From Prevotellaceae bacterium (GTDB taxonomy: Bacteria; Bacteroidota; Bacteroidia; Bacteroidales; UBA932): a DNA stretch of 23,768 nucleotides. The stretch covers positions 1-23,768 of the forward strand of contig JAITVR010000020.1 of the NCBI GenBank assembly GCA_031285695.1, given 5' to 3'. Below the pieces are notes generated by a model that ran no database searches, was not told the DNA's origin, and saw only the letters and a list, made by a program, of their open reading frames with translations. A program made the position numbers and the translations under genes. Shown here one piece after another: positions 2,302 to 19,337 of the stretch. Position 1 is the first letter of the stretch, and the number at the start of each line of letters is the position of its first letter.

Positions 2302-2309
2302 TTTTTTAA

Positions 2310-2357
2310 TGGAAAGTTGAGAATTGAAAATGAATTCTCAACTCTCAACTCTCAACT
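2310..2357. repeat. Intergenic hairpin with CTCAACT heptamers (rpsL-rpsG gap)
   Basis: An 11-bp perfect stem AGTTGAGAATT (2315-2325) / AATTCTCAACT (2333-2343) encloses a 7-base loop. The right arm runs into three tandem copies of CTCAACT (2337-2357). The array fills most of the 64-base gap. Confidence 0.85.
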
Positions 2358-2365
2358 AAATAAAA

Positions 2366-2842
2366 ATGAGAAAAGCAAAGCCCAAAAAACGAATTCTACT
2401 TCCCGACCCCAAGTTTGGCGATGTGCTGGTAACGCGCTTCGTAAACGACTTGATGTTAGATGGTAAGAAGAGTATTGCCTACAGCATTTTTTACGATGCA
2501 ATTGACATGGTAGGCGAGAAGATGAAAGACGCAGACAAGGCTCCGCTCGACATCTGGAAAAAAGCGCTGGAGAACATCACGCCTTCAGTAGAAGTGAAGA
2601 GCCGCCGTATTGGTGGCGCCAACTTCCAAGTGCCCACCGAAGTGCGCCCCGAGCGCAAGGTGGCCATCAGCGTGAAAAACATGATTAAGTACGCGCGCAC
2701 CCGCAACGCCAAATCAATGGCCGAAAAGTTGGCCGCCGAATTTATGGCAGCTTACAACGAGGAAGGCGGCGCATTTAAGCGCAAAGAGGACATGCACAAA
2801 ATGGCCGAAGCTAACCGCGCATTTGCTCACTACAAAGTTTAA
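2366..2842 (+). CDS. rpsG: 30S ribosomal protein S7 (uS7)
   Basis: S7 nucleates assembly of the 30S head and lies near the exit site. The 158-residue product has the expected MRKAKPKKR start, [29 protein letters not shown], the [25 protein letters not shown] core and the helix with [40 protein letters not shown] at the end. The length is usual for Bacteroidota. It lies between rpsL and fusA, 15 bases ahead of fusA, as in the classical str operon. In Escherichia coli S7 represses its own operon; no matching site was identified here. Confidence 0.98.
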
Positions 2843-2857
2843 AAGAGGAAACACACA

Positions 2858-4984
2858 ATGGCAAGAGACCTAGCATATACGCGCAATATCGGCATCATGG
2901 CGCACATCGACGCGGGAAAAACCACCACGAGCGAGCGCATTCTTTTTTACACCGGCAAAACACACAAAATTGGTGAAGTGCACGAAGGCGGCGCTACCAT
3001 GGACTGGATGGTGCAGGAGCAGGAACGCGGTATTACCATTACCTCGGCGGCTACCACCACCTTTTGGAACTACAGCGGACAAACCTACCACATCAACCTT
3101 ATTGATACCCCGGGCCACGTTGACTTTACTGTAGAAGTTGAACGTTCACTTCGCGTGCTCGATGGCACAGTGGCTACGTTTTGCGCCGTTGGCGGCGTAG
3201 AACCCCAATCTGAAACCGTTTGGCGTCAGAGCGAAAAATACCACGTACCAAAGATTGCCTACATCAACAAGATGGACCGCACGGGCGCGGATTTTTTCAA
3301 CGTTATAAAGGAAATTAAGGAAAAGTTGGGTGCAAATCCTGTGCCCATCGTTCTTCCTATCGGTTCTGAAGATAAGTTTACAGGCTTGGTTGACCTCATT
3401 GCCAACAAGGCCATGATTTACGACTCAAACAGCAAGGAGCTCGTAAACTACACCATCGAAGAAGTACCCGCCGAAATGCAAGCCGAGGCTGCTGAGTGGC
3501 GCGGTAAGCTCATTGAATCTATTGCAGAGTACAATGATGCGCTTTTGGAAAAATTCTTCGAAAATCCCGACTCAATTACCGAGCAAGAAATTATTGATAC
3601 CATTCGCAAAGCTACCATTGGCATGAGCATTGTGCCGGTAATGTGCGGTTCTTCATTCAAGAATAAGGGCGTTCAGTACCTGCTCAACTCAGTAATTCGC
3701 TTCCTTCCCAGCCCGCTTGATAAGGGCGCAGTTGAAGGAACCGACCCCAGCGATGCTGAAAAAATGCTTTCGCGCAAGCCTTTGGTTACCGAACCTTTCT
3801 GCGGTTTGGCGTTTAAAATTGCTACCGACCCATTTGTAGGTCGTTTGGCTTTCGTGCGCGCCTACTCAGGTCGTTTGGACGCAGGTTCGTATGTTTTCAA
3901 TCCTCGTTCCGACAAAAAAGAGCGCATTTCGCGCTTGTACCAAATGCACTCCAACAAGCAAAATCCCATTGAGTTTTTGGAGGCCGGCGATATTGGCGCA
4001 TGCGTAGGTTTTAAAGACCTTCGCACGGGCGATACCGTGTGCGACGAAAAAGCGCCTATCGTGCTCGAATCAATGTCTTTCCCCGACCCCGTTATTGGTT
4101 TGGCTGTTGAGCCAAAAACCCAAAAAGACTTGGATAAGTTGGGCATGGGCTTGAGCAAACTCGCCGAAGAAGACCCCACGTTTACCGTGCGTTCTGACGA
4201 AGAAACCGGTCAAACCGTTATCAGCGGCATGGGCGAGCTCCACCTCGAAATTATTGTTGACCGTTTGCGCCGCGAATTTGGCGTTGAAATCAACCAAGGT
4301 GCGCCGCAGGTTAACTACAAGGAAGCTTTGCGCGGCTCGGTTGAGCACCGCGAAGTGTTCAAAAAGCAAACCGGTGGTCGCGGTAAATTTGCCGACATCA
4401 TTGTAGAAATTGCTCCTGCCGACGAAAACGTAGTGGGCTTGCAATTTGTTGATGTGGTAAAAGGCGGTAACATTCCCCGCGAATTTATTCCCGCTATCGA
4501 AAAAGGATTTAAGTCAGCCATGACAAATGGTGTGCTTGCCGGCTACGAAATTCCCTCCATGAAGGTAACCGTAAAAGACGGCTCGTTCCACCCGGTTGAC
4601 TCCGATGCGCTATCGTTCGAAATTTGCGCACGCGCAGCTTTCCGCCACGCTTGCCCCAAGGCAAATCCCGTAATCATGGAGCCCATCATGGCGCTCGAAG
4701 TGGTTACCCCCGAGGATTACATGGGCGATATTATTGGCGACTTGAACAAGCGCCGCGGTCAAATCCAAAACATGGACTCAAAGGGCAATGCCCGCGTAAT
4801 TAAGGCTAGCGTTCCGCTTTCGGAGCAGTTTGGCTACGTTACCGTGCTGCGTACGCTCAGTTCCGGCCGCGCAACTTCTTCAATGGAGTTTGACCACTAC
4901 GCTGAAGTTCCTGCCAACCTCGCTAAGGAAATTATCGAAAAGGCAGCAGGCAAGAAGAAGGGCGATAAGGACCTTGACGAGTAA
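2858..4984 (+). CDS. fusA: Elongation factor G
   Basis: EF-G is the cytosolic GTPase that drives translocation of tRNA and mRNA and, with the recycling factor, splits ribosomes. The 708-residue product shows the P-loop AHIDAGKT (15-22), switch [10 protein letters not shown] (83-90), NKMD (137-140) and, downstream, the complete domains II to V, including [10 protein letters not shown] and [12 protein letters not shown] near the end. A GAGG 9 bases before the ATG is a modest ribosome binding site, uncommon here. tuf, which follows fusA in many bacteria, is absent and rpsJ comes next, a Bacteroidota arrangement. Confidence 0.98.
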
Positions 4985-4985
4985 T

Positions 4986-5021
4986 AGTTCAACAGAAAAC
5001 AATTCAACAGTTCAACAACTG
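4986..5021. repeat. TTCAACA tandem units (fusA-rpsJ gap)
   Basis: The 41-base gap contains three copies of TTCAACA(G) with 7-15-base spacing, and a small hairpin CAGTT/AACTG (5008-5012 with 5017-5021). It is the shortest and weakest of the heptad arrays. Confidence 0.6.
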
Positions 5022-5025
5022 AAAT

Positions 5026-5331
5026 ATGAGCCAAAAAATTAGAATTAAGCTGAAATCGTACGACCACTCCTTGGTGGACAAGTCGTCGGAAAAAATCGTG
5101 AAAACGGTGAAGGCAACAGGCGCAGTAGTTAGCGGCCCCATACCCTTGCCCACGCAAAAGAAAATTTTCACGGTAAACCGTGCAACTTTCGTAAACAAAA
5201 AATCGCGCGAGCAGTTTCAGCTCAGCACCTACAAGCGCCTGCTCGACATCTACAGCTCAACGCCCAAAACCGTTGACGCGCTGATGAAGCTCGAGTTGCC
5301 CAGCGGCGTAGAAGTTGAAATCAAGGTGTAA
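5026..5331 (+). CDS. rpsJ: 30S ribosomal protein S10 (uS10, NusE)
   Basis: S10 is a head protein of the small subunit and, as NusE, a partner of NusB and NusG in antitermination and transcription-translation coupling. The 101-residue product matches along its length: [17 protein letters not shown] at the start, [17 protein letters not shown] (36-52) and the loop that packs against 16S rRNA, then [34 protein letters not shown]. It marks the join of the str block with the S10 block, and is followed by a 111-base gap holding a hairpin array. Confidence 0.98.
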
Positions 5332-5335
5332 GTTT

Positions 5336-5404
5336 CGACATGCGATAGCGCGACATGCGATGTGCGAATTTTCGCAAGTCGAGCAGTCGCAAATCGCACA
5401 TCAA
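5336..5404. repeat. GCGACAT/TCGCA heptad hairpin, family A copy 1 (rpsJ-rplC gap)
   Basis: Left units GCGATAG, GCGACAT, GCGATGT face right units TCGCAAG, TCGAGCAG, TCGCAAA, TCGCACA. A perfect 9-bp stem GATGTGCGA / TCGCACATC joins 5359-5367 with 5394-5402. The same vocabulary recurs near 14420 and 14960. Confidence 0.85.
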
Positions 5405-5442
5405 AAAGTTAGAATTTGTATTTTTCATTTTTATAAACAAAC

Positions 5443-6072
5443 ATGGCAGGAATTATTGGAAAAAAAATCGGAATGACCTCCGTTTTCGATGCAGCCGGGA
5501 AAAATATCCCCTGCACCGTTATTGAAGCTGGCCCATGTGTTGTCACGCAAGTTAAAACCGTTGAAAACGACGGTTATGCAGCAGTGCAGCTTGCCTATGA
5601 CGATAAGAAGGAAAAGAGCACCACTTCAGGCATGCTCGGACACTTCAAGAAAGCCGGAACCACCCCAAAGTACAAGGTGGTAGAGTTTCCCGTTTTTGCG
5701 GGAAAAGAAGACAAAGAGTTGGCAGCAGGCGACCAAGTTGGCGTTGACCTCTTTGAAGAAAACGATTGGGTTGACGTAGTGGGAACCTCCAAGGGTAAAG
5801 GTTTTCAGGGCGTTGTTCGCCGCCACAACTTTAGCGGTGTGGGTGGTCAAACGCACGGTCAGCACAACCGCCTTCGCGCCCCCGGTTCGGCCGGCGCATC
5901 ATCGTACCCTTCGCGCGTACTTCCGGGCCGCAAGCTCGGTGGCCGCATGGGTGGCGACCGCGTAAAGGTGCTCAACCTTGTAATTGTGAAGTTGATTCCC
6001 GAAAGCAACTTGATGCTGGTAAAGGGTTCAGTTCCCGGCGCAATAGGTTCTTACTTACTAATTGAGGATTAA
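5443..6072 (+). CDS. rplC: 50S ribosomal protein L3 (uL3)
   Basis: L3 binds near the 3' end of 23S rRNA and reaches towards the peptidyl transferase centre. The 209-residue product begins [14 protein letters not shown] and contains [14 protein letters not shown], then [15 protein letters not shown] and [15 protein letters not shown], the long loop that enters the subunit core. The final segment [22 protein letters not shown] is typical. It begins the S10-type run and is only 6 bases from rplD, suggesting translational coupling. Confidence 0.98.
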
Positions 6073-6078
6073 GGAATT

Positions 6079-6711
6079 ATGGAGTTATCAGTATATAGCA
6101 AAGAAGGAAAAGAAACCTCAAAAAAGGTAAGCCTTTCCGACGCGGTATTTGGCATAGAGCCGAATGACCACGCCATTTACCTCGATGTAAAGCAAATTCT
6201 TGCCAACGGCCGTCAAGGCACGCACAAGTCAAAGCAGCGCGCCGAGGTACACTACAGCACCAAAAAGTTGAAGCGCCAAAAGGGAACCGGCGGCGCTCGT
6301 GCAGGCAGCATTAAGTCGCCCCTGTTCGTTGGTGGCGGTCGCGTGTTTGGCCCCGTGCCCCGCGATTACAGCCACAAGCTCAACAAGAAGCAAAAGGCGC
6401 TTGCTCGCCGCAGCGCATTGGCACAAAAGGCATTAAGCAACAACATTCGTGTGGTGGAAAACCTCATGTTTGACGCTCCCAAAACCAAGGAATTTCTCAG
6501 CATGTGGGAAAACCAAAAGTTAGCAGGAAAAAAGTTGCTCGTAGTGCTGCCCGAGTCAAATAAAAACGTATATTTGTCGTCCCGAAATTTGCCCCACGTA
6601 AAAACCATAACAGCCAACGAGTTAAACACTTACGATGTTATGAATGCAAACGATTTGCTGCTTTTGGAAGGCTCGGTTGACGTTATTAACCAACTATTAG
6701 GGGCTGAATAA
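6079..6711 (+). CDS. rplD: 50S ribosomal protein L4 (uL4)
   Basis: L4 lines the peptide exit tunnel with its extended loop. The 210-residue product shows [37 protein letters not shown] and the following helix [10 protein letters not shown], the usual rRNA-binding region. In gammaproteobacteria L4 also represses the S10 operon through the leader; no corresponding leader is seen because this operon is fused to the str genes. It lies 6 bases after rplC and 13 before rplW. Confidence 0.98.
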
Positions 6712-6724
6712 GCTAAATTTAACA

Positions 6725-7018
6725 ATGAGTACACAACTGATTAAGCCACTTATAACCGAAAAAATGACGGCTCAGGGCGATAAGCTGAATCGTTACGGTT
6801 TTGTTGTTGAGCCATGTGCCAACAAGCTGGAAATCAAAGAGGCGGTAGAAAAAATGTATGGCGTTAAAGTTGAGGAAATCAACACCATGAACTACCGTGG
6901 CAAAACCAAAACCCGCTTTACCAAAGCAGGTATTCTTAGCGGCCGCAACGTACACCGCAAAAAAGCGATTGTAACCCTGGCCGAAGGCGATAAAATTGAT
7001 TTTTACAGTAACATCTAA
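6725..7018 (+). CDS. rplW: 50S ribosomal protein L23 (uL23)
   Basis: L23 sits at the mouth of the exit tunnel and docks trigger factor and the signal recognition particle. The 97-residue product has the usual IKPLITEKMT start, YGFVVEPCANKLEIKEAVEKMYGVKVEEINTMNYRGK, and an extended basic loop (KTKTRFTKAGILSGRNVHRKKA) before the last strand. The length and order after rplD are as expected. Only 6 bases separate it from rplB. Confidence 0.98.
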   Translation: MSTQLIKPLITEKMTAQGDKLNRYGFVVEPCANKLEIKEAVEKMYGVKVEEINTMNYRGKTKTRFTKAGILSGRNVHRKKAIVTLAEGDKIDFYSNI

Positions 7019-7024
7019 GAAAGC

Positions 7025-7849
7025 ATGGCGCTCAGAAAATTTAAACCCGTAACACCGGGTACAAGACATAAGGTAATCTCCGCTTTTGAAGAAATTACCT
7101 GCTCAACGCCCGAAAAATCGCTGCTCGAGCCAAGCAAAAGCAGCGGCGGACGTAACAACCAAGGCCGTATGACTATGCGCTACTTAGGCGGTGGTCACAA
7201 GCGTATGTACCGCGTTATCGACTTTAAGCGCGATAAGGACAGCTACGCAGCCACGGTTAAAACCATTGAGTATGACCCCAACCGCAACGCACGCATTGCA
7301 CTGGTAGCCTACGCCGACGGCGAAAAGCGCTACATCATTGCACCCGTGGGCTTGCAGGTAGGTCAGCAAATACAATCGGGCAAAGGCGTTGCTCCCGAAG
7401 TGGGCAACACACTTTTCCTTTCCGAAATACCTTTGGGTACGGTGGTGCACAACATTGAGCTTACGCCCGGACAAGGCGCAACCATGGCGCGCAGCGCAGG
7501 AACCTCAGCGCAGCTTTTGGCGCGCGAAGGCAACCACGCCGTGCTCAAGTTGCCATCGGGCGAAACGCGCATGGTGCTTACAACCTGCCGCGCAACCATT
7601 GGCTCGGTATCCAACCCCGACGCGCAAAACGAATCGCACGGTAAGGCCGGCCGCAAGCGTTGGTTGGGTCGCCGTCCGCGCAACCGCGGCGTGGCTATGA
7701 ACCCCGTTGACCACCCCATGGGCGGTGGCGAAGGTAAAAACTCCGGCGGTCACCCGCGCTCACGCAAGGGCTTGTTGGCTAAGGGTAAAAAGACCCGTAA
7801 CCCGAAGAAGACCACTTCGAAGTTTATTATTGAAAGAAGGAAAAAATAA
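7025..7849 (+). CDS. rplB: 50S ribosomal protein L2 (uL2)
   Basis: L2 is needed for subunit joining and peptidyl transferase activity. The 274-residue product shows the [20 protein letters not shown] region, [22 protein letters not shown] of the OB-like domain, LPSGETRMV of the SH3-like domain, and the C-terminal [24 protein letters not shown] that reaches the active centre. The second His of the common HPHGGGEG is Met here, a variant I believe is usual in Bacteroidota. It is followed by a palindromic array before rpsS. Confidence 0.98.
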
Positions 7850-7850
7850 T

Positions 7851-7901
7851 GGACAATGGACAATGAACAATGGATAATTATCCATTATCCGTTATCCATT
7901 A
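7851..7901. repeat. ATGGACA/TTATCCA heptad palindrome (rplB-rpsS gap)
   Basis: Two 24-base arms (7854-7877 and 7878-7901) are inverted repeats with about 19 of 24 pairs; the centre AATGGATAATTATCCATT (7869-7886) is a perfect 18-base palindrome. Each arm is three near-heptamers (ATGGACA, ATGAACA, ATGGATA on the left). Confidence 0.9.
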
Positions 7902-7916
7902 AAAAATTGAAACAAA

Positions 7917-8180
7917 ATGAGCCGTTCACTTAAAAAAGGACCATATATCGTTGCCAGCCTCGAAAAGAAGGTGGAAGCCATGAACACGAGCAAGAAAAAA
8001 GCCGTGGTTAAAACGTGGGCACGCGCCAGCATGATTCCGCCCGATTTTGTAGGTCACACCATTGCTGTGCACAACGGCAACAAGTTTATTCCGGTGTACG
8101 TTACCGAAAACATGGTAGGCCACAAGCTCGGCGAATTTGCGCCAACTCGTACCTTCAAGGGACACTCGGGCAACCGGTAA
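7917..8180 (+). CDS. rpsS: 30S ribosomal protein S19 (uS19)
   Basis: S19 is a head protein that contacts the A-site tRNA region and the bridge to the large subunit. The 87-residue product follows the family closely: [64 protein letters not shown]. It is flanked on both sides by gaps with repeat arrays (67 and 110 bases), which is unusual because rplB, rpsS and rplV are normally packed closely. Confidence 0.98.
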
Positions 8181-8183
8181 TCA

Positions 8184-8246
8184 TAGACAAAAGATGTAAA
8201 GACAAAAAGAGCAAGGACACTATAAGTCTTGTAGTCTTTATTCTTT
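8184..8246. repeat. AAGACAA/GTCTT repeat hairpin (rpsS-rplV gap)
   Basis: Left units AGACAAA, AAAGACA and AAGGACA face right units AGTCTTG, AGTCTTT and ATTCTTT, so the two halves are imperfect inverted repeats around about 8222. The remainder of the 110-base gap (8247-8290) is AT-rich with no structure I can name. Confidence 0.65.
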
Positions 8247-8290
8247 AAATCATTGTTCGTAAATAAAAAATTTAGCATAAATCCTAAGTA

Positions 8291-8728
8291 ATGGGTGCAA
8301 GAAAAAGATTAAGAGCTGAAGAGCTCAAGGCAGAGAAGAAGCAAAAGGCGGGAGCCGTGCTTCGCGATTGCCCCTCATCGCCCCGCAAAATGAGGCTGGT
8401 AGCCGACATGATACGCGGTGTTGAGGTAAACAAGGCGCTGGGAATTTTGAAATTCTCGAAAAAGCACGCCTCAATGGACGTGGAAAAGCTCCTCAAGTCG
8501 GCAATTGCCAACTGGGAAGCCAAAAACCAAGCCGACAAGCGTGATTTGGAAGAGGGCAGCGTTTTTGTAAAAGAAATTTTTGTTGACGGCGGCCGCATGC
8601 TGAAGCGCATTTCGCCCGCACCGCAAGGTCGCGCGTACCGCATTCGCAAGCGCTCCAACCACGTAAACATCGTGCTGGGCAGCAAGAAGGAAAAAGTAGA
8701 AGAAACCGTAACCGAAAAAGAAGCATAG
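8291..8728 (+). CDS. rplV: 50S ribosomal protein L22 (uL22)
   Basis: L22 has a beta hairpin lining the exit tunnel narrowing. The 145-residue product shows [30 protein letters not shown], the tunnel hairpin [32 protein letters not shown], and a charged tail [10 protein letters not shown]. It is slightly longer than the enterobacterial protein because of N- and C-terminal extensions. rpsC starts 3 bases after the stop, implying coupled translation. Confidence 0.98.
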
Positions 8729-8731
8729 AAG

Positions 8732-9541
8732 ATGGGACAAAAAATTAACCCGATAAGCAATCGCATAGGCATCATTCGCGGCTGGGATTCTAACTGGTAC
8801 GGTGGAAACAATTATGCAGGTAAAATCGTTGAAGACTCGAAAATTCGCAAGTACCTCAACGAACGTTTGGCCAAGGCAAGCCTTTCGCGCATCGTTATTG
8901 AGCGCACGCTAAAGCTCGTTACGGTAACCATCAACACAGCTCGCCCCGGTGTTATCATCGGCAAGGGCGGACAGGAAGTGGACAAGCTGAAGGAAGAGTT
9001 GAAAAAGCTCACCGGAAAAGATGTTCAAATCAACATTTTTGAGGTAAAACGTCCCGAATTAGACGCTACCATTGTTGCCAGCAACATTGCACGCCAGGTA
9101 GAAGGACGCGTTTCATACCGTCGCGCCATTAAAACAACCATGGCATCGACCATGCGCTTGGGTGCCGAAGGTATTAAGGTGCAAATTTCGGGTCGCGTAG
9201 GCGGCGTTGAAATTGCCCGCAGCGAAACCATTAAAGAAGGTCGCATACCCTTGCACACGCTTCGCGCCGATATTGATTACGCCTTGGCAGAAGCCTTGAC
9301 AAAAGTAGGTTTGCTCGGCATCAAGGTTTGGATTTGCAACGGCGAAGTTTACGGCAAGCGCGACTTGCTGCCCAACGTAGGCGTAGCAGCCGGTACAGCC
9401 GGTGCATCAGCCGGCGCAGGCAGCGATGACCGTCGCGGTGGACGCGGTGGCCGTGGTGGTGAGCGTCGCGGCGGCGGCGACCGTGGAGGTCGTGGCGGCG
9501 AACGCAGAAGCGGCGGCGAAGGTCGTGCTCCAAGAAGGTAA
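8732..9541 (+). CDS. rpsC: 30S ribosomal protein S3 (uS3) with RGG-rich C-terminal tail
   Basis: S3 forms part of the mRNA entry channel and its helicase activity. Residues 1-215 are a normal S3: [13 protein letters not shown], the KH domain with [20 protein letters not shown], then [15 protein letters not shown] and [12 protein letters not shown]. After [17 protein letters not shown] comes an Ala/Gly linker (about 218-230) and a tail of about 39 residues with six RGG triplets interspersed with ERR and DRG, ending APRR. Such arginine-glycine tails are typical of RNA-binding proteins and are absent from the enterobacterial S3. The tail codons follow the usage of the rest of the gene. It overlaps no other real gene. 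Confidence 0.97.
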
Positions 9542-9555
9542 GAAATTTTTAGCAC

Positions 9556-9632
9556 AAAGTTTGTAAAGTTGAAAGTTTGTAAAGTAACATTTCCACTTTA
9601 AACTTTAAGAACTTTAGGAACTTTAAGAACTC
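9556..9632. repeat. GTAAAGTT/AACTTTA heptad hairpin, family B copy 1 (rpsC-rplP gap)
   Basis: Left AAAGTT-TG-TAAAGT (9572-9585) pairs with ACTTTA-AACTTT (9595-9606), 12 pairs with a 2-base bulge, around loop AACATTTCC. A second left copy of AAAGTTTG (9556-9563) and two more AACTTTA units on the right extend the array. The same sequence family recurs before rpmJ. Confidence 0.85.
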
Positions 9633-9640
9633 AAAACAAA

Positions 9641-10072: not shown

Positions 10073-10075
10073 GCC

Positions 10076-10276: not shown

Positions 10277-10282
10277 CAAGCA

Positions 10283-10546: not shown

Positions 10547-10549
10547 GCC

Positions 10550-10915: not shown

Positions 10916-10947
10916 GCAAAAACGTAAATTTTGAAAAACAGAAAACC

Positions 10948-12145: not shown

Positions 12146-12151
12146 AGTGCT

Positions 12152-12214
12152 TGTCATTCCGCGCTTGACGCGGAATCCCCATTGAGGAGATTGCGGGTCA
12201 AGCCCGCAATGACA
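12152..12214. repeat. Double-hairpin TGTCATTCCGCG repeat, family D copy 1 (rpsN-rpsH gap)
   Basis: Outer arms TGTCATT (12152-12158) and AATGACA (12208-12214) frame two 8-bp hairpins: ATTCCGCG/CGCGGAAT (12156-12163 with 12169-12176, loop CTTGA) and ATTGCGGG/CCCGCAAT (12190-12197 with 12203-12210, loop TCAAG). Elements of this type are dispersed in many bacterial genomes. A second copy lies between secY and map. Confidence 0.92.
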
Positions 12215-12308
12215 GCATAAGAAATAGTATTAGATAAAATAATTATTGGATATCGGGTGCGGACAATTTTGTTGCAGCGCTGAGTATATCGAAAAAACAT
12301 TTTTAAAA
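12215..12308 (+). promoter_or_regulatory. Rest of the rpsN-rpsH gap, possible structured leader of rpsH
   Basis: Nested inverted segments GATAT (12249-12253), TGC and ACAA face TTGT, GCA and ATATC (12286-12290), which could fold into an interrupted stem just upstream of the start codon. No TAnnTTTG box or Shine-Dalgarno sequence is seen. A protein-binding role is possible but speculative. Confidence 0.3.
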
Positions 12309-12704
12309 ATGACTGATCCAATAGCAGACTTCTTAACAAGAATTCGCAACGCCGTAAAGGCAGGACACAAGGTGGTGGAAATTCCCGCCTCCAACACCAA
12401 GAAGGAAATAACCCGCATTCTTCATGAAAAAGGCTACATTCTTAGCTACAAGTTCATGGAAGAAGGACCTCAGGGCAGCATTAAAATTGCCCTCAAGTAC
12501 CACCCCGAAACCAAGCGCAGCGCTATCAAGGATTTGAAGCGCGTGAGCACGCCGGGTCTTCGCCGCTACGCCGGCGTGGACACCATGCCCTCGGTGCTGA
12601 ACGGCTTGGGTGTGGCCATTGTTTCTACCTCAAAAGGTTTGATGACTGATAAGGAAGCACGCTTGCAAAACGTAGGCGGCGAAGTACTTTGCTACGTATA
12701 TTAG
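12309..12704 (+). CDS. rpsH: 30S ribosomal protein S8 (uS8)
   Basis: S8 binds the 16S central domain early in assembly and in Escherichia coli represses the spc genes. The 131-residue product from the ATG at 12309 begins [34 protein letters not shown] and ends [32 protein letters not shown], a complete family match. An upstream in-frame ATG at 12246 would add 21 residues unlike any S8 (with several Cys), so it is rejected. It is followed by rplF after 20 bases. Confidence 0.97.
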
Positions 12705-12724
12705 AAATTTCAAATTATAATTAA

Positions 12725-13285: not shown

Positions 13286-13287
13286 GC

Positions 13288-13293
13288 AGGAGG
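13288..13293 (+). promoter_or_regulatory. Strong Shine-Dalgarno sequence of rplR
   Basis: AGGAGG lies 7 bases before the rplR ATG at 13301. Most genes of this window have no such motif, in line with Bacteroidota ribosomes whose anti-Shine-Dalgarno is reported to be sequestered, so this perfect match stands out. Confidence 0.85.
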
Positions 13294-13300
13294 ATAATCA

Positions 13301-13675
13301 ATGGCACTATCAAAAACAGAAAGAAGGCAGCGCATTAAGTACCGCATTCGTAAAACGATTAACGGTACGGCAGAGCGCCCGCGCATGGCGGTTTACCGCA
13401 GCAACGACCAAATTTACGTTCAGCTTATTGACGATACAGCTTGCGAAGGTCAGGGTTCGACCCTGCTTCAGGCCAGCTCGGTAGAAAAAGCAGTTGCTGA
13501 GCAAGTAAAAGGCAAAACCAAGCAGGAAATTGCCACAGCAGTAGGAAAAATTGCCGCTGAGCGCGCCGCTGCAAAAGGTATTAAGGAAGTGGTATTTGAC
13601 CGCGGAGGTTTCCTGTACCACGGACGTGTTAAATGTTTAGCCGACGCTGCCCGCGAAGGTGGCTTAAAATTCTAA
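13301..13675 (+). CDS. rplR: 50S ribosomal protein L18 (uL18)
   Basis: L18 binds 5S rRNA and helps mount it on the large subunit. The 124-residue product shows the basic start [44 protein letters not shown], the [36 protein letters not shown] end that defines the family, and a slightly enlarged middle. It is one of only two genes in the operon with a strong Shine-Dalgarno sequence. rpsE starts 7 bases later. Confidence 0.98.
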
Positions 13676-13682
13676 TAAGCGT

Positions 13683-14204
13683 ATGTCAGAAAATTCAAAC
13701 GTAAAAAAAGTAAAAACTACCGACCTTGAGCTTAAGGACAGGTTGGTGGCCATTCAGCGCGTTACCAAGGTAACCAAGGGTGGACGTCACTTCAGCTTTG
13801 CTGCCATTGTGGTAGTAGGCAACGAAAACGGCGTAGTAGGCTACGGCTTGGGCAAGGCCAACGAAGTTTCCATCGCCATCAGCAAGGGCATTGAGGACGC
13901 AAAAAAGAACTTGGTAAAAGTTCCGGTATTCAAGGGAACTATACCGCACGAGCAGGTGGCAAAATTTGGCGGTGCTCGCGTGTTCATGCGCCCCGCAGCT
14001 CCCGGTACTGGTGTTAAGGCCGGCGGCGCTATGCGCGCTGTGTTCGAGAGCGTGGGCATTCACGACGTGCTGGCTAAGTCAAAAGGTTCATCGAACCCGC
14101 ACAACCTGGTAAAAGCGACGGTAAACGCACTCCTCGAGCTGCGCGACGCCTATGCAGTGGCCAACGTTCGCGGCGTATCGCTAAGCAAAGTGTTCAACGG
14201 TTAA
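13683..14204 (+). CDS. rpsE: 30S ribosomal protein S5 (uS5)
   Basis: S5 lies at the back of the decoding region and the mRNA entry and affects accuracy. The 173-residue product contains [49 protein letters not shown] (double-stranded RNA-binding-like domain) and the second domain with [55 protein letters not shown]. Length and order are as expected. rpmD follows after 22 bases. Confidence 0.98.
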
Positions 14205-14211
14205 TTCTAAC

Positions 14212-14217
14212 GGAGGT
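14212..14217 (+). promoter_or_regulatory. Strong Shine-Dalgarno sequence of rpmD
   Basis: GGAGGT lies 9 bases before the rpmD ATG at 14227, the second strong ribosome binding site found in the superoperon. Confidence 0.8.
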
Positions 14218-14226
14218 AAAAAGAAA

Positions 14227-14409
14227 ATGGCAACAGTAAAAATCACACAGGTGCGCAGCCAAATTGGCGCCACCGACAAGCAAAAAGCCACGCTCCGCAG
14301 CCTGAAGTTGGGTAAAATCAACCGCAGCACCGAGCGCGACGATAGCGACACGGTAGTAAAAGGCATGATTGCCGCCGTGAGCCACTTGGTAAAAGTAGAA
14401 AAGGTTTAA
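14227..14409 (+). CDS. rpmD: 50S ribosomal protein L30 (uL30)
   Basis: L30 is a small peripheral protein of the large subunit. The 60-residue product MATVKITQVRSQIGATDKQ with TLRSLKLGKINRSTERDDSDTVVKGMIAAVSHLVKVEKV matches the bacterial short form: the I-G-x-x-x-K-Q-x-x-T-L-x-x-L-x-L turn and the final V-x-H-L-V-x-V strand. Its position between rpsE and rplO supports the call. A family A hairpin array fills the following 90-base gap. Confidence 0.97.
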   Translation: MATVKITQVRSQIGATDKQKATLRSLKLGKINRSTERDDSDTVVKGMIAAVSHLVKVEKV

Positions 14410-14420
14410 CGTTAGGACAA

Positions 14421-14490
14421 AGCGATATGCGATGTGCGACATGCGAAAAAGCAGGTCGCAAGTCGCAAGTCGAGAAGTCGCAAATCGAAT
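14421..14490. repeat. GCGATAT/GTCGCAA heptad array, family A copy 2 (rpmD-rplO gap)
   Basis: Left: GCGATAT, GCGATGT, GCGACAT, GCGAAAA in strict 7-base phase (from 14423). Right: GTCGCAA, GTCGCAA, GTCGAGA, then AGTCGCAA and ATCGA. GCGAC and GTCGC cores pair. The array ends 10 bases before the rplO start. Confidence 0.88.
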
Positions 14491-14499
14491 AAGGAAAAA

Positions 14500-14949
14500 A
14501 TGGAACTAAGCAATTTAACCCCCGCAGCGGGTTCAACACATAAGGAAAAGCGCATTGGTCGTGGCGAAGGCTCCGGTCGTGGAGGCACCTCTACGCGCGG
14601 TCACAAGGGTGCGCAATCTCGCTCGGGCTACTCGCGCAAAAAAGGTTTTGAAGGCGGCCAAATGCCGCTACAGCGCCGCCTGCCCAAGTTTGGCTTTAAG
14701 AACATCAACCGCGTGGAGTATAAGGCTATCAACCTGTATATGTTGCAGGTTTTGGCCGAAAAAACAAAGCTGGAAGTTATTACCGAAGCCACTTTTGTGG
14801 AGCACGGTTTAGCTTCAAAAAACGACAGAATTAAAATCTTGGGTCAAGGTCAGCTCAGCGCAAAGCTCGAAGTTTCGGCGCACGCCTTCTCAAAGTCAGC
14901 CATTGCCGCTATTGAGGCGCAGCAGGGTAAGGCTACCACGGTAAAGTAA
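14500..14949 (+). CDS. rplO: 50S ribosomal protein L15 (uL15)
   Basis: L15 is an assembly protein with a long extended N-terminus that penetrates the 23S rRNA. The 149-residue product from the ATG at 14500 begins MELSNLTPAAGSTHKEKRIGRGEGSGRGGTSTRGHKGAQSRSGYSRKKGFEGGQMPLQRRLPKFGFKN, a clear match, followed by the globular C-terminal domain. An in-frame upstream ATG (14434) would translate the repeat array into a basic extension unlike L15 and is rejected. Confidence 0.97.
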   Translation: MELSNLTPAAGSTHKEKRIGRGEGSGRGGTSTRGHKGAQSRSGYSRKKGFEGGQMPLQRRLPKFGFKNINRVEYKAINLYMLQVLAEKTKLEVITEATFVEHGLASKNDRIKILGQGQLSAKLEVSAHAFSKSAIAAIEAQQGKATTVK

Positions 14950-14959
14950 AAATCGGACT

Positions 14960-15030
14960 AAGCGATATGCGATATTCGACGTGCGAAAGAAGCTGTCGCA
15001 TATCGCAAGTCGAAAAGTCGCAAGTCGCAT
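14960..15030. repeat. GCGATAT/TCGCATA heptad hairpin, family A copy 3 (rplO-secY gap)
   Basis: A perfect 11-bp stem GCGATATGCGA / TCGCATATCGC joins 14962-14972 with 14996-15006. The right side continues with AGTCGAAA, AGTCGCA, AGTCGCA to 15029. It shares its unit vocabulary with the arrays near 5360 and 14430. Confidence 0.9.
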
Positions 15031-15039
15031 TATAAAGGC

Positions 15040-16356
15040 ATGAAGAAGTTTATTGAAACGCTAAAGAACATTTTTAGGATTGAAGACCTAAGAAAGCGCA
15101 TTCTGTTTACGCTGGCAATTTTGTTGGTGTACAGGTTGGGTTGCTACGTGGTAATTCCCGGAGTTGACCCTTCGCAACTTGCTGATTTGCAACAACAAGC
15201 AAGCGAAGGCTTGATGGGCTTGCTCAACATGTTCTCGGGCGGTGCGTTTGGCAACGCTGCTATTTTTGGACTTGGCGTAATGCCCTACATCTCGGCCTCC
15301 ATTGTGGTGCAGCTGCTGGGCATGATGGTTCCCTACTTCCAGCGCTTGCAGCGCGAAGGAGAAAGCGGTCGCCGTAAGATTAACCAAATTACAAGGTACT
15401 TGACGCTCGTTATTTTGTGCTTCCAAGCGCCGGCGTATTTGGCCAACCTACACATGCAGCTACCCCCCGAAGCCTTTATGATAAAGGGAGTTTACTTCAC
15501 TGTTTTCTCCACCATTGTGCTCATGGCAGGTACCATGTTCATTATGTGGTTGGGCGAAAAAATTACGGATAAAGGTTTGGGCAACGGCATTTCGCTCATC
15601 ATCATGGTGGGTATTGTGGCACGACTTCCCTTTGCTATTATTTCCGAATTTGGCTCGCGCTTTTCGCAGCAAGCCGGCGGTTTGATAATGTTTGTGGTAG
15701 AAATTGTAATACTGTTTTTGGTTTTTGTAGCCACTATTGCACTGGTGCAGGGCGTGCGCAAAATTCCTGTACAGTACGCTAAGCGAATTGTAGGCAACAA
15801 GCAGTACGGCGGCGTTCGTCAGTACATTCCGCTGAAGATAAACGCAGCAGGCGTTATGCCCATTATTTTTGCGCAGGCGCTCATGTTTTTGCCCATGATT
15901 TTCTCAAAGTTTGAGGCCACTTCTGCTATTGCGGTTGCGTTTTCAAACTACACCGGACTTTGGTACAACCTGCTCTTTGGCTTAATGGTGGTAGCCTTTA
16001 CCTACGCCTACACGGCGGTAACGGTTAACCCCACCAACATGGCCGAAGAAATGAAGAAAAACGGCGGATTTATTCCCGGAGTAAAACCAGGCAAGCAAAC
16101 TGCCGGCTATATCGACAGCATCATGTCGCGCATTACGCTGCCCGGCTCTATCTTCTTAGCATTTGTGGCTATTATGCCTGCTTTTGCCATGAAGTTGGGC
16201 ATCAGCAACCAGTTTGCGCAATTTTTTGGCGGAACATCGCTGCTCATTTTGGTGGGCGTGGTGCTCGATACGCTACAGCAAATTGAAAGTCACCTACTCT
16301 CGCGCCACTACGATGGCTTGATGAAAACAGGACGACTGAAGGGTAGAAACGGATAA
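15040..16356 (+). CDS. secY: Protein translocase channel subunit SecY
   Basis: SecY is the inner-membrane pore through which unfolded proteins are exported or inserted. The 438-residue product has the ten expected hydrophobic helices, starting with RILFTLAILLVYRLGCYVVIPGVD; GLMGLLNMFSGGAFGNAAIFGLGVMPYISASI forms the plug and second helix; QREGESGRRKINQ is the first cytosolic loop; RIVGNKQYGGVRQYIPLKINAAGVMPIIFA and NPTNMAEEMKKNGGFIPGVKPGKQT form the SecA and ribosome docking loops. The order rplO-secY is conserved; adk, often next, is missing. Confidence 0.98.
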   Translation: MKKFIETLKNIFRIEDLRKRILFTLAILLVYRLGCYVVIPGVDPSQLADLQQQASEGLMGLLNMFSGGAFGNAAIFGLGVMPYISASIVVQLLGMMVPYFQRLQREGESGRRKINQITRYLTLVILCFQAPAYLANLHMQLPPEAFMIKGVYFTVFSTIVLMAGTMFIMWLGEKITDKGLGNGISLIIMVGIVARLPFAIISEFGSRFSQQAGGLIMFVVEIVILFLVFVATIALVQGVRKIPVQYAKRIVGNKQYGGVRQYIPLKINAAGVMPIIFAQALMFLPMIFSKFEATSAIAVAFSNYTGLWYNLLFGLMVVAFTYAYTAVTVNPTNMAEEMKKNGGFIPGVKPGKQTAGYIDSIMSRITLPGSIFLAFVAIMPAFAMKLGISNQFAQFFGGTSLLILVGVVLDTLQQIESHLLSRHYDGLMKTGRLKGRNG

Positions 16357-16365
16357 AAATAGCGT

Positions 16366-16427
16366 TGTCATTCCGTGCTTGACACGGAATCCCCAACAGG
16401 AGATTGCGGGTCGAGCCCGCAATGACA
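16366..16427. repeat. Double-hairpin TGTCATTCCGTG repeat, family D copy 2 (secY-map gap)
   Basis: Outer arms TGTCATT (16366-16372) and AATGACA (16421-16427) frame ATTCCGTG/CACGGAAT (16370-16377 with 16383-16390) and ATTGCGGG/CCCGCAAT (16403-16410 with 16416-16423). Compared with copy 1 at 12152, one stem pair changed from C-G to T-A on both sides, so the fold is kept. Confidence 0.92.
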
Positions 16428-16456
16428 AGCAGGATAAAAAGTTCTTTGTAAGAAAA

Positions 16457-17245
16457 ATGGGACTGGTAAAAACCGCCGAGGAAATTGAGTTGCTGCGCGA
16501 AAACAATCAGCTGGTGTCGCGCACGCTGGCTGAGTTAGCCAAGCACATTGCTCCCGGGGTTACAGGCTTGCAGCTCGACAAAATAGCCGAAACGTTTATC
16601 CGCGATAACGGAGCAACGCCTGCGTTTTTAGGCTACGAAGGTTTTCCCAACTCGCTGTGCATTTCCATCAACGATGTGGTAATACACGGCATACCGAACA
16701 GCACTGAGCTGCGCGATGGCGACATCATTTCGGTAGATTGCGGAACGAGCATGAAAGGCTACATTGGCGATTCGGCTTATACATTTGCCGTAGGCGAAGT
16801 AAGCGACGAAGCCAAAAAATTGCTGCACGCCACCAAGGAAAGTTTGAAGCGCGGCGCAGCGCAAGCGGTGGAAGGAAATCGCATTGGCGATATTTCGAAT
16901 GCAGTGCAAAGTTACGTTGAAAGTTTAGGATATTCGGTGGTGCGCGAAATGGAGGGACACGGCGTTGGAGCGAAAATGCACGAGCGACCCGGAGTGCCAA
17001 ACTACGGTAAGCGCGGCGATGGAAAAAGGCTCATAAAGGGCATGACCATTTGCATAGAGCCGATGATAAACCAAGGCAAGCGCGATATTGTACAGGAGCG
17101 CGATGGCTGGACCATTAGAACAAAAGACCGCTCGCTAAGCGCGCACTTTGAGTACGCAGTGGCGGTGGGAAAAGATAGACCGGACATTCTTACAACGTTC
17201 GATTACGTTGAAGAAATTTTGAAGCAAAAAGGAAGTTTTTTTTAG
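16457..17245 (+). CDS. map: Methionine aminopeptidase, type I
   Basis: This cytosolic metalloenzyme removes the initiator methionine from new proteins. With the start at 16457 the product has 262 residues and all five metal ligands: D94 and D105 (SVDCGTSMKGYIGDSAYTF), H168 (EGHGVGAKMHERP), E201 (CIEPM) and E232 (HFEYAVAV). Substrate-side H75-like and H175 residues are also present. An in-frame upstream ATG at 16379 would translate the family D repeat (MTRNPQQEIAGRARN...) and is rejected. The gene follows secY as in most Bacteroidota and is 9 bases ahead of infA. Confidence 0.96.
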   Translation: MGLVKTAEEIELLRENNQLVSRTLAELAKHIAPGVTGLQLDKIAETFIRDNGATPAFLGYEGFPNSLCISINDVVIHGIPNSTELRDGDIISVDCGTSMKGYIGDSAYTFAVGEVSDEAKKLLHATKESLKRGAAQAVEGNRIGDISNAVQSYVESLGYSVVREMEGHGVGAKMHERPGVPNYGKRGDGKRLIKGMTICIEPMINQGKRDIVQERDGWTIRTKDRSLSAHFEYAVAVGKDRPDILTTFDYVEEILKQKGSFF

Positions 17246-17254
17246 AAAAAGTAA

Positions 17255-17473
17255 ATGGCAAAACAAACCGCCATAGAACGCGATGGAGTAATTGTGGAGG
17301 CGCTTTCGAACGCCATGTTCCGCGTGGAGTTGGATAACGGCCACGTGGTAACGGCGCACATTTCGGGCAAAATGCGCATGCACTACATCAAAATTTTGCC
17401 CGGCGATAAGGTAAAAGTCGAAATGACGCCCTACGATTTGACCAAGGGAAGAATTTCGTTCAGATACAAGTAA
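17255..17473 (+). CDS. infA: Translation initiation factor IF-1
   Basis: IF-1 is a small OB-fold protein that blocks the A site during initiation. The 72-residue product [26 protein letters not shown] continues with [46 protein letters not shown], a full-length match including the GKMRxxxIxILPGDxVxVExxPYDLxxGRIxxR signature. It lies 9 bases after map and before a 95-base gap with a repeat array. Confidence 0.98.
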
Positions 17474-17483
17474 AATAGCAAGA

Positions 17484-17558
17484 AGTTCGTAAAGTTTATA
17501 AAGCTACAAGTGGTTTGCCACTTTACAAACTTTAAGAACTTTACAAACTTTATAAACT
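17484..17558. repeat. GTAAAGTTTATAAAG hairpin, family B copy 2 (infA-rpmJ gap)
   Basis: Arms 17484-17503 and 17521-17540 pair in 18 of 20 positions, around an inner hairpin AAGTGG-TTTG-CCACTT (17508-17523). A further TTACAAACTTTATAAACT unit (17541-17558) repeats the right arm. The vocabulary matches the array before rplP. Confidence 0.92.
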
Positions 17559-17568
17559 CAACAAAAAA

Positions 17569-17685
17569 ATGAAAGTAAGAGCATCCATCAAAAAACGCAG
17601 CGAGGATTGCAAGATTGTAAAGCGCAAAGGTCGCCTGTACGTTATCTGCAAAAAGACCCCGAAGTTCAAAATGCGTCAGGGTTAA
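17569..17685 (+). CDS. rpmJ: 50S ribosomal protein L36 (bL36)
   Basis: L36 is a tiny 23S rRNA-binding protein. The 38-residue product runs from [17 protein letters not shown] through [21 protein letters not shown]. Of the four zinc ligands of the classical form (CX2CX12CX4H), only two Cys remain (C14 and C27); the first Cys and the His are replaced, so zinc binding is doubtful. This partly degenerate, probably zinc-independent form is close to what I expect in Bacteroidota. It lies between infA and rpsM, as usual, with rpsM 30 bases downstream. Confidence 0.95.
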
Positions 17686-17715
17686 TTTTAAACCGTTAAT
17701 TTTTAAAGCAACAAT

Positions 17716-18096
17716 ATGGCACGTATTTCAGGTATTGATTTACCTAAAAACAAGAGAGGCGAAATAGGGCTGACCTACATTTACGGCATTGGTCACAGCA
17801 CTGCGCGCAACATTTTAACCACCGCCGGTGTGGATTTCAACACCAAGGTAAAAGATTGGAGCGATGCGCAGGAAGCCGCCATTCGTAACGCCATTGCACA
17901 GGGCGGCTACAAGCTCGAAGGCGAGCTGCGCACCGTAGTGCAAATGAGCATCAAGCGCCTAATGGACATTGGCTGCTACCGCGGCATTCGCCACCGTTTG
18001 GGCCTGCCCGTGCGCGGACAAAGCACCAAAAACAACGCCCGCACGCGCAAGGGTAAGAAGAAGACAGTTGCAAACAAGAAGAAGGCAACGAAGTAG
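17716..18096 (+). CDS. rpsM: 30S ribosomal protein S13 (uS13)
   Basis: S13 is a head protein contacting the P-site tRNA and bridges to L5. The 126-residue product begins [34 protein letters not shown], has the central helices with [43 protein letters not shown] and ends in a Lys-rich tail (NKKKATK). It opens the alpha block and is followed by a 79-base gap with a family C array. Confidence 0.98.
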
Positions 18097-18100
18097 TAAA

Positions 18101-18171
18101 TTTAGTGATTAGTGATTAGTGATTAGAGGGTAACTCAAGTCGCAGGTCGCCAATCGCAAATCATAAATTCA
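18101..18171. repeat. TGATTAG triple heptad with TCGCAAATCATAAAT arm, family C copy 1 (rpsM-rpsK gap)
   Basis: AGTGATT is tandemly repeated three times (18104-18124). TTAGTGATTAGTGATT (18102-18117) pairs with AATCGCAAATCATAAA (18152-18167) with two G-U pairs and two A-A mismatches. The middle (TCGCAGGTCGCC) resembles family A units. Confidence 0.88.
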
Positions 18172-18175
18172 GAAA

Positions 18176-18565
18176 ATGGCAAAAAAACCAGGAACGACAA
18201 AAAAGAAGGTTGTTAAGATTGAGGCTGTAGGCGAAGCACACATTACCTCAACGTTCAACAACATCATCATCACGTTGACCAACGCCGATGGGCAAGCCAT
18301 CAGCTGGTCGTCGGCAGGCAAGATGGGATTTCGTGGCTCTAAAAAGAACACGCCCTACGCTGCGCAAATGGCCGCAAATGACTGCGCCAAAGTAGCCTTT
18401 GACTTAGGCTTGCGCAAGGTAAAAGCCTACGTGAAAGGTCCCGGTGCAGGTCGCGAATCGGCCATGCGCACCATCCACACCAACGGTATTGAGGTAACCG
18501 AAATTGTGGACGTAACCCCAATACCTCACAACGGATGCCGCCCAAAAGGTCGCCGCAGAGTGTAA
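18176..18565 (+). CDS. rpsK: 30S ribosomal protein S11 (uS11)
   Basis: S11 lies on the platform near the E-site mRNA. The 129-residue product contains [96 protein letters not shown], with the family's PGxGRE and PHNGCRPxxRRRV signatures. The sequence before its start codon is almost identical to that before rpsD. Confidence 0.98.
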
Positions 18566-18569
18566 GTAA

Positions 18570-18641
18570 TAATTAGTGATTAGCGATTAGTGATTAGAGA
18601 AAAGCTCAAATCGCAGGTCGCCAATCGCAAATCATAAATCA
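18570..18641. repeat. TGATTAG/CGATTAG array with TCGCAAATCATAAAT arm, family C copy 2 (rpsK-rpsD gap)
   Basis: TGATT-A-GCGATT (18577-18588) pairs with AATCGC-A-AATCA (18623-18634), 11 pairs with one A-A mismatch, extendable outward to 18572 and 18639. From CTCAA to the start codon it matches copy 1 at all but one base and one indel. Confidence 0.9.
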
Positions 18642-18645
18642 GAAA

Positions 18646-19254
18646 ATGGCAAGATATACAGGACCAACAACTAAAATCGCCCGTAAGTTTGGCTCGCCCA
18701 TTTACGGCGCCGATAAGGCATACGAAAAAAAGAACTACCCTCCCGGACAGCACGGCTTGGCAAAGAAGCGCAAAAAGGTATCGGAGTACGGCACGCAGCT
18801 TACCGAAAAGCAAAAGTTGAAATACACTTACGGCTTGCTCGAGCGCCAATTCCGCAACCTGTTTGAAAAAGCTTCGACCATGAAAGGCCGCAAGGGCGAC
18901 AACCTGCTTAAGCTGCTCGAAAGCCGCTTGGACAACGTTGTATTCCGCCTGGGCATTGCCCCCAGCCGCGCCGCAGCACGCCAGCTCGTAGGCCACCGCC
19001 ACATTGTGGTAAACGGCGATGTGTGCAACATTCCCTCAATGATTTTGAAGGAAGGCGATATTGTAAGCGTTCGCGAAAAGTCGAAGAGCCTTGAAGTAAT
19101 TCAAGAAACCTGCGGAACTTCGCGCTCAAGCCGCTTCTCGTGGATGGAGTGGGACAGCAACGCCATGAGCGGCAAGTTCCTCAACCGCCCCGAGCGTGCC
19201 GACATACCCGAGGCTGTGAACGAGCAGCTCATCGTCGAGTTGTACTCTAAGTAG
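18646..19254 (+). CDS. rpsD: 30S ribosomal protein S4 (uS4)
   Basis: S4 is a primary 16S binder, an accuracy determinant and in Escherichia coli the repressor of the alpha operon. The 202-residue product starts [21 protein letters not shown], has [43 protein letters not shown] and the S4 RNA-binding domain [41 protein letters not shown]. It lacks the N-terminal zinc-binding cysteines of some S4 proteins, so it is the zinc-free type. A heptad array separates it from rpoA. Confidence 0.98.
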
Positions 19255-19261
19255 TAATGGA

Positions 19262-19334
19262 TTTATTATTTATGATTTTCGATTTATAATTTTAAATCAT
19301 CAATCATAAATCATCAATCATAAATCAATCGAAA
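19262..19334. repeat. AATCATA/AATCATC heptad array with alternative stems (rpsD-rpoA gap)
   Basis: ATTTATGATT (19268-19277) pairs perfectly with either of two AATCATAAAT copies (19302-19311 or 19316-19325), while TTTCGATT (19277-19284) pairs with AATCGAAA (19327-19334). The right half is AATCATC and AATCATA alternating in 7-base phase. Confidence 0.88.
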
Positions 19335-19337
19335 GAT

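Follow-up and report, generated by a model that had tools for sequence, protein, structure and literature searches.

The window analysed here, 23,768 nt of contig JAITVR010000020.1 from a Prevotellaceae bacterium, carries a ribosomal protein superoperon whose longer intergenic gaps contain palindromic arrays of short repeats. These arrays are the subject of this work. Most of them are probably copies, lacking an open reading frame (ORF), of a dispersed palindromic selfish element similar to the intervening sequences (IVSs) of rRNA and inserted between co-transcribed genes. The window lies within contig G000:C144 of the source genome, G000, a 1.48-Mb assembly in 255 contigs which is 77% complete. 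A comparison of the L5 protein gave metagenome-assembled genomes labelled Prevotellaceae bacterium as its closest named relatives. From rpsL to rplQ all 33 ORFs are intact, and the products of 10 of the 33 were checked against NCBIfam.

A preliminary description of this DNA had divided the gaps into two classes, long ones with a repeat, mostly built of heptamers, and short ones with none. The division by length was borne out: the 14 gaps that reach 41 nt are at the places named there, and the other 18 do not exceed 32 nt. The rpsN-rpsH gap is 163 nt (the rpsH start is at 12309). Four short gaps of 20-32 nt gave no repeat or fold signal, and the 14 of less than 20 nt were too short to test. With 100 dinucleotide shuffles of each gap, the inverted-repeat score passed the 95th percentile in 13 of the 14 long gaps, though only just in rpsS-rplV; fusA-rpsJ was the only one to fail, so that the repeat claimed for every long gap was found in all but one. 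Heptamers account for a smaller share than described. A lag-7 period (p ≤ 0.03, uncorrected for several tests) was found in eight of the 14, after rpsL, rpsJ, rplB, rpmD, rplO, rpsM, rpsK and rpsD; when any lag from 4 to 11 is allowed, p is 0.24 for rpsJ and 0.08 for rpsD. The gaps after rpsC and infA have a 9-nt unit, those after rpsN and secY contain a different, non-tandem palindrome of about 63 nt belonging to one common family, and those after rpsS and fusA have no significant tandem period.

The distribution of such repeats was determined in a sample of 60 of the 255 contigs (357,021 bases, genes called with a home-made codon model), using gaps of 41-300 nt and defining a strong hairpin as a fold z of -2.5 or below. 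Strong hairpins were present in 64 of 112 same-strand gaps, 17 of 20 convergent gaps, 9 of 24 divergent gaps and 2 of 150 coding stretches; the corresponding figures for lag-7 arrays were 20/112, 3/20, 0/24 and 0/150. Hairpins and heptads thus occur in same-strand gaps genome-wide, and therefore the hairpins of the operon (10 of 14) are not significantly enriched (p = 0.39). Lag-7 arrays are moderately enriched, at 7 of 14 (Fisher p = 0.012), which is what remains of the striking concentration in an essential operon originally reported. Sequence relatives elsewhere in the sample were found for 13 of the 14 operon gaps. Arrays of this kind are no peculiarity of the ribosomal operon.

Hairpins lying 3' of stop codons, and frequent in convergent gaps too, might be Rho-independent terminators or attenuators. 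However, the operon must be read through, and in a consensus scan of the plus strand none of the 14 long gaps had a terminator-like site. Terminators were rejected on this result, and it is extremely improbable that they explain the arrays.

S23/IVP genes and their flanking arms

S23/IVP (PF05635) is a protein family known from rRNA intervening sequences. There are ten matches to PF05635 in G000, nine of them above the curated cut-off. The protein at locus L191 is also above the cut-off of TIGR02436 ('four helix bundle protein'), and the solved structures 2GSC and 2RLD are related to it. A strongly basic character, as a binder of nucleic acids might be expected to have, was not observed in 78 IVP proteins, whose median net charge is +2. 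A set of 81 unique IVP ORFs was taken from 79 loci; four were dropped because of short flanks, and the remaining 77 were scored alongside 55 control genes and 2279 swapped pairs. Arms paired across the ORF (inverted-repeat score of at least 16) were present at 47 of the 77; the control genes gave 4 of 55 and the swapped pairs 178 of 2279. A tandem array was found on either side of 61 of the 77 IVP ORFs and 15 of the 55 control genes, the best period of the IVP arrays being 7, followed by 8 and 9. Pairing across the ORF was stronger than pairing inside either flank for 61/77 IVP ORFs and 18/55 controls, and the IVP ORF therefore sits in the loop of the palindrome.

The arms in G000 share families with the operon arrays. 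For ten of the 14 operon gaps, the likeness to an IVP arm of G000 exceeded the 95% level in 40 shuffles. The flanks of L191 are of the CATGCGA family, as are the gaps after rpsJ, rpmD and rplO; those of L193 are of the AAGTTTGTA family, found in the rpsC and infA gaps; and those of L197 and L198 are of the GAGAGTTGA family, found in the rpsL gap. Arm similarity grows with the identity of the IVP proteins (Mantel p = 0.002, same-genome pairs counted). The proportion of pairs reaching the arm-similarity mark is approximately 7% below 35% identity, 26% at 45-60% and 51% at 60-80%, as when the ends and the protein travel together.

One site was compared in several genomes. The gap between the genes for the small and large subunits of methylmalonyl-CoA mutase (mutA and mutB, named by NCBIfam) was examined at 30 loci and measured at 23; of the seven which could not be measured, four were in same-genus genomes with the two genes matched on different contigs. 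The gap is 460 nt in G000 and 476 nt in G016, and in each it contains an IVP ORF plus arms, with different heptads. In G032 it is 116 nt, with a right arm resembling that of G016 by eye, and at the remaining 20 loci it is 3-57 nt. This looks like insertion into a short gap.

We propose that the full element would consist of an arm of tandem 7-9-nt repeats, an S23/IVP gene of about 120 codons and a reverse-complement arm, and that ORF-less copies would retain the two arms round a short loop. Such an element, moved or once moved with IVP, may have entered short gaps between co-transcribed genes, where it would do little harm and its copies would be tolerated. The ORF-less copies would then derive from IVP elements or be moved by them. 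In RNA, the array would form a stem-loop which, by analogy with published rRNA IVSs, could be cleaved by RNase III, and the enzyme may act on the ORF-less copies as well. This proposal does not extend to the GTCATTCC palindromes after rpsN and secY or to the gap after fusA. The coordinates of all 14 gaps and of their repeats are given in Table 1.

Table 1. Repeats in the 14 long gaps of the operon (strand '.' throughout). IR, inverted-repeat score compared with shuffles; match, similarity to IVP-element arms of G000, 40 shuffles; sample, the 357-kb sample.
Gap	Position	Feature	Scores and matches
rpsL-rpsG	2302..2365	palindromic AGTTGAG-type heptad array, arms 2302-2331/2334-2363	lag-7 14/14, p=0.005; IR 18, null max 11; match 23 to L198 arms, null max 19
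fusA-rpsJ	4985..5025	TTCAACA x3, no significant palindrome	IR 5, null95 6; tandem pany 0.065; no IVP-arm match; no relatives in sample
rpsJ-rplC	5332..5442	CATGCGA-type palindromic array 5336-5396	IR 13, null max 12; match 24 to L191, null max 21
rplB-rpsS	7850..7916	GACAATG-type palindromic array 7855-7900	lag-7 13/14, p=0.005; IR 15, null max 10; match 20 to L198, null max 17
rpsS-rplV	8181..8290	AAAGACAAAAAG-type imperfect palindrome 8190-8254	IR 11, null95 10, null max 16; no IVP-arm match in G000; 8 related sites in sample; arms alike by eye at IVP locus L212 of G017
rpsC-rplP	9542..9640	AAGTTTGTA-type 9-mer palindromic array 9556-9615	lag-9 13/14, pany 0.010; match 38 to L193, null max 22
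rpsN-rpsH	12146..12308	non-heptad GTCATTCCGCG palindrome 12152-12214	IR 19, null max 13; no IVP-arm match; 16 related sites in sample
rpmD-rplO	14410..14499	CATGCGA-type palindromic array, best-scoring arms 14423-14444/14451-14472	fold z=-6.2; lag-7 13/14; IR 12, null max 8; match 21 to L191, null max 18
rplO-secY	14950..15039	CATGCGA-type palindromic array 14962-15028	lag-7 12/14, p=0.005; IR 14, null max 11; match 20 to L191, null max 15
secY-map	16357..16456	non-heptad GTCATTCCGTG palindrome 16365-16428, family as in rpsN-rpsH	IR 18, null max 10; no IVP-arm match
infA-rpmJ	17474..17568	AAGTTTATA-type 9-mer palindromic array 17483-17541	lag-9 12/14, pany 0.025; match 35 to L193, null max 22
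rpsM-rpsK	18097..18175	TTAGTGA left arm and TCGCAAA-type right arm, 18099-18169	lag-7 14/14; IR 12, null max 9; match 20 to L191, null max 18
rpsK-rpsD	18566..18645	near copy (by eye) of rpsM-rpsK array, 18569-18635	lag-7 12/14; IR 13, null max 11; match 20 to L191, null max 18
rpsD-rpoA	19255..19337	AATCATA-type palindromic array 19257-19329	IR 22, null max 17; match 21 to flank of L200 (weak, partial IVP match), above null95 17, equal to null max 21

Two products of the operon have an extended C-terminal end. That of rpsC has a tail of about 60 residues (9370-9538) past the family model, TIGR01009 covering residues 1-209 of 269, and the tail is Arg/Gly-rich by eye. That of rplQ, as read from the sequence, has an extension rich in Ala and Lys (20700-20834).

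The arms of one IVP copy match each other and seldom match those of other copies, which suits either templating at the DNA level or joint inheritance of the two ends. A local origin would make use of the former: the heptads would have grown by slippage and the palindromes been perfected by template switching, with no transposition, the IVP genes inserting into them. The heptad sequence is often private to one site, swapped arms rarely pair, the symmetry of GT and AC mismatches described below fits templating of DNA, and at one gap, rplB-rpsS, arrays turn up repeatedly with different heptads. However, relatives of nearly all the operon gaps occur elsewhere in the sample, the arrays after rpsM and rpsK are by eye near copies of each other, the arm family tracks the IVP lineage, and the mutA-mutB gap resembles an insertion. 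We consider a purely local origin unlikely, and prefer dispersal of an IVP element.

IVP genes with arms were also found on plasmids. In a plasmid collection, an IVP relative was encoded in 37 records, 31 of them cyanobacterial by organism name. Sixteen of the genes were analysed (14 cyanobacterial, one from Azospirillum and one from Gemmatirosa), with swapped pairs as the only comparison. Paired arms were present at 9 of 16, against 21 of 240 swapped pairs, and 13 of 16 had a tandem array on a side; the gene at L270 had none. At L271, L274 and L277, cas6 and cas4 flank the S23/IVP gene on two cyanobacterial plasmids, and on a third the gene sits within a cmr operon. In the 50 genomes behind the ribosomal loci described below, IVP density correlates with strict lag-7 arrays in the ribosomal locus (Spearman 0.50, p = 0.0002, phylogeny being ignored). 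A strict array was present in the loci of 11 of the 34 genomes with an IVP match and of none of the 16 without one.

Related genomes and the question of function

The same gaps were compared in eight genomes of the same genus (G001-G004 and G007-G010, all with incomplete contigs), in which 73 homologous gaps were seen. A lag-7 array was present in 8 of the 73, and 24 of the 73 were shorter than 41 nt. G033 has kept the gene order and has a lag-7 array in none of the 14 homologous gaps. Six of its gaps (rplB-rpsS, rpsS-rplV, rpsC-rplP, rpmD-rplO, rplO-secY and rpsK-rpsD) are of 21-47 nt, compared with 67-110 nt in the window; after rpsL, rpsJ, rpsN, secY, infA, rpsM and rpsD it has long gaps of other sequence, and those after infA and secY resemble decayed arrays by eye. 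In a set of 80 ribosomal loci, almost all of them with Bacteroidetes in the title, 305 gaps of 41-400 nt were scored without a low-complexity filter, and 20 of these, at 13 loci, contained an array. The presence of arrays is mostly lineage-specific.

Two further differences between the loci were observed. In the same-genus loci L111-L119 the rpsS-rplV and rpsN-rpsH gaps are, where seen, about 430-1480 and 650-770 nt, compared with 110 and 163 nt in the window, and no PF05635 ORF was found in these longer gaps. In many Bacteroidales loci (L002-L004 and L006-L016) neither rpsC nor any gene preceding it was found upstream of rplP, which looks like a split of the ribosomal cluster at that point.

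The comparison bears on the suggestion, made in the preliminary description, that the arrays are intercistronic hairpins which process or stabilise the polycistronic mRNA and so tune the levels of ribosomal proteins. They do lie between cistrons, lag-7 arrays are denser in the operon and missing from divergent gaps, and RNase III cleaves the stem of the Coxiella IVS according to the available excerpts of PMC4990558. Arrays also occur in long ribosomal gaps of other loci, as given above, including one array after rpsC common to seven of them, and the rplB-rpsS gap has an array in five same-genus genomes. Against this, few homologous gaps of the same genus and none of G033 have an array, the arrays are found throughout the genome, and an Rfam search gave no family match up to E 0.1, so that a known RNA family was rejected. 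The stem mismatches counted in G000 were 56 GT and 59 AC for same-strand gaps, 4 GT and 12 AC for the operon, and 64 GT and 82 AC for IVP arms. Because there is no sense-strand excess of G.U, nothing points to pairing maintained at the RNA level, and RNA-level selection on the stems was rejected. A tuning function is thus not supported and we regard it as improbable. The other suggestion made at that stage, tolerated selfish repeats like those of cyanobacteria, is supported by the results, and IVP provides a candidate for the source element.

The preliminary description had also noted a likeness to repetitive extragenic palindromic (REP) elements. These, and bacterial interspersed mosaic elements (BIMEs), are moved by REP-associated tyrosine transposases (RAYTs) of the Y1 type. 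The arrays are palindromic, intergenic and in many copies; Y1_Tnp matched in 41 of the 60 genomes searched, a set which includes G000; and the non-heptad GTCATTCC palindromes could be REP-like. The flanks of Y1_Tnp genes of relatives served as a specificity control (20 genes, two dropped for short flanks). Inverted repeats of their own were present at 8 of 18, but a tandem array lay beside only 2 of 18. There was no Y1_Tnp match in G000 (77% complete), and G022 (94% complete) has four IVP matches and no Y1_Tnp. A RAYT origin of the heptads was rejected on these grounds and is very unlikely.

Movement by a resident reverse transcriptase was rejected as well. No match to RVT_1 was found in G000, at the same completeness, or in the IVP-bearing relatives G028, G029, G037, G039 and G054, all at least 95% complete. 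The excerpts available of a paper on diversity-generating retroelements point out a resemblance of PF05635 to Avd, which is required for retrohoming; the candidacy of such a retroelement, considered from the Avd side, failed for want of a reverse transcriptase match in G000.

Several observations weigh against derivation of the arrays from IVP elements. No IVP ORF was found in the ribosomal gaps of the window or of loci L001-L130, and no ribosomal site shows both the full and the ORF-less form. Four operon gaps (fusA, rpsS, rpsN and secY) have no IVP-arm match and that of rpsD equals the null maximum. Sixteen of the 77 IVP ORFs have no array at threshold and 30 of the 77 no strong inverted repeat, and an array was found near 15 of 55 control genes too. 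Seven of the 16 plasmid IVP genes lack paired arms, and at L271 and L285 the arrays of the two sides, judged by eye, point the same way; the genome survey took no account of phylogeny. The IVP gene could be a passenger which inserts into palindromes of other origin. Finally, some ribosomal arrays persist or recur at one gap, which could mean function: the rplB-rpsS gap has an array in G001, G002, G003, G004 and G007, with different heptads in the three inspected, and the single rpsC-rplP array of seven related Chryseobacterium/Kaistella/Weeksellaceae loci makes up 7 of the 20 counted among the 80 loci. With these points taken into account, dispersal of an IVS-like element, mostly as ORF-less copies, is still the probable origin of most of the arrays.

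Comparison with known systems

S23/IVP genes are widespread and known mainly from rRNA. Repeats built of heptamers have been described independently in a number of bacterial groups, with no agreed origin. A link between IVP and heptads beyond the Coxiella IVS was not found stated in the open-licence literature of PMC. None is made in the available parts of MacGregor 2015 and Rehm 2015, a paper on rRNA insertions in the candidate phyla radiation (PMC11270868) does not mention repeats or heptamers, and in the excerpts available of PMC8700078 and PMC5524665 four helix bundle proteins appear solely in gene lists.

If the S23/IVP protein and the heptad repeats are two halves of one element, a hypothesis is available for both. 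How repeats of the cyanobacterial type arose, how mobile IVSs are and what the S23 pentamer does become directly testable. A possible source is suggested for many unexplained seven-base repeats, and it appears that a ribosomal operon can accommodate about ten insertions among its essential genes. More tentatively, the short palindromic heptad arrays of Bacteroidetes, Cyanobacteria and other phyla, including the cyanobacterial and TAACTGA repeats described below and others like them, may be the ends, for the most part left over without an ORF, of a single class of mobile element that has not been recognised as such. Its sole protein would be the Avd-like S23/IVP four-helix bundle, it would move with neither a known transposase nor a resident reverse transcriptase, and rRNA IVSs would be its rRNA-inserted members; we put this forward as a possibility rather than a preferred view.

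Cyanobacterial short tandemly repeated repetitive (STRR) sequences are heptamers that lie in tandem between genes and fall into more than one family, and the arrays are like them in both respects; no link of STRR sequences to S23/IVP was found in the open-licence literature searched. The heptamers of Calothrix PCC7601 are cited in the excerpts available of PMC4692102 (Rehm 2015). The GGGAATC heptamers of Xanthomonas described there often form inverted pairs (70 cases in Xcc), as here, but are reported as generally unassociated with mobile elements and were studied as G-quadruplexes. The TAACTGA direct repeats of Beggiatoaceae, Cyanobacteria and Bacteroidetes (MacGregor 2015, PMC4679880, as excerpted) are likewise intergenic heptamers which occur in ribosomal protein operons too, with close relatives having shorter gaps that lack them; they differ in being a single heptamer, nearly always direct, and were proposed as sites for a translational regulator. 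REP elements and BIMEs are also dispersed intergenic palindromes, but no cognate transposase flanked by the repeats was found in G000 (77% complete), and the tandem arrays are mostly missing from Y1_Tnp flanks in relatives. A cis-regulatory leader of ribosomal protein genes would likewise be hard to reconcile with the Rfam result and the few arrays in same-genus gaps.

The closest likeness is to the 23S rRNA IVS of Coxiella burnetii. According to the available excerpts of PMC4990558, this is a 428-nt element with a 28-bp terminal stem and S23p in the loop, in which tandem GACAGAT heptamers precede the ORF, the repeat number varies between strains and RNase III cleaves the RNA. The terminal inverted repeats are present in 13 of the 14 operon gaps, the ORF in the loop is found elsewhere in G000 though not in the operon copies, and tandem heptamers beside the ORF are common throughout the IVP set; a variable number of repeats is a further point in common. 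The G000 copies lie between protein genes and not in rRNA helices; the arrays are therefore better said to work like an rRNA IVS than to be one.

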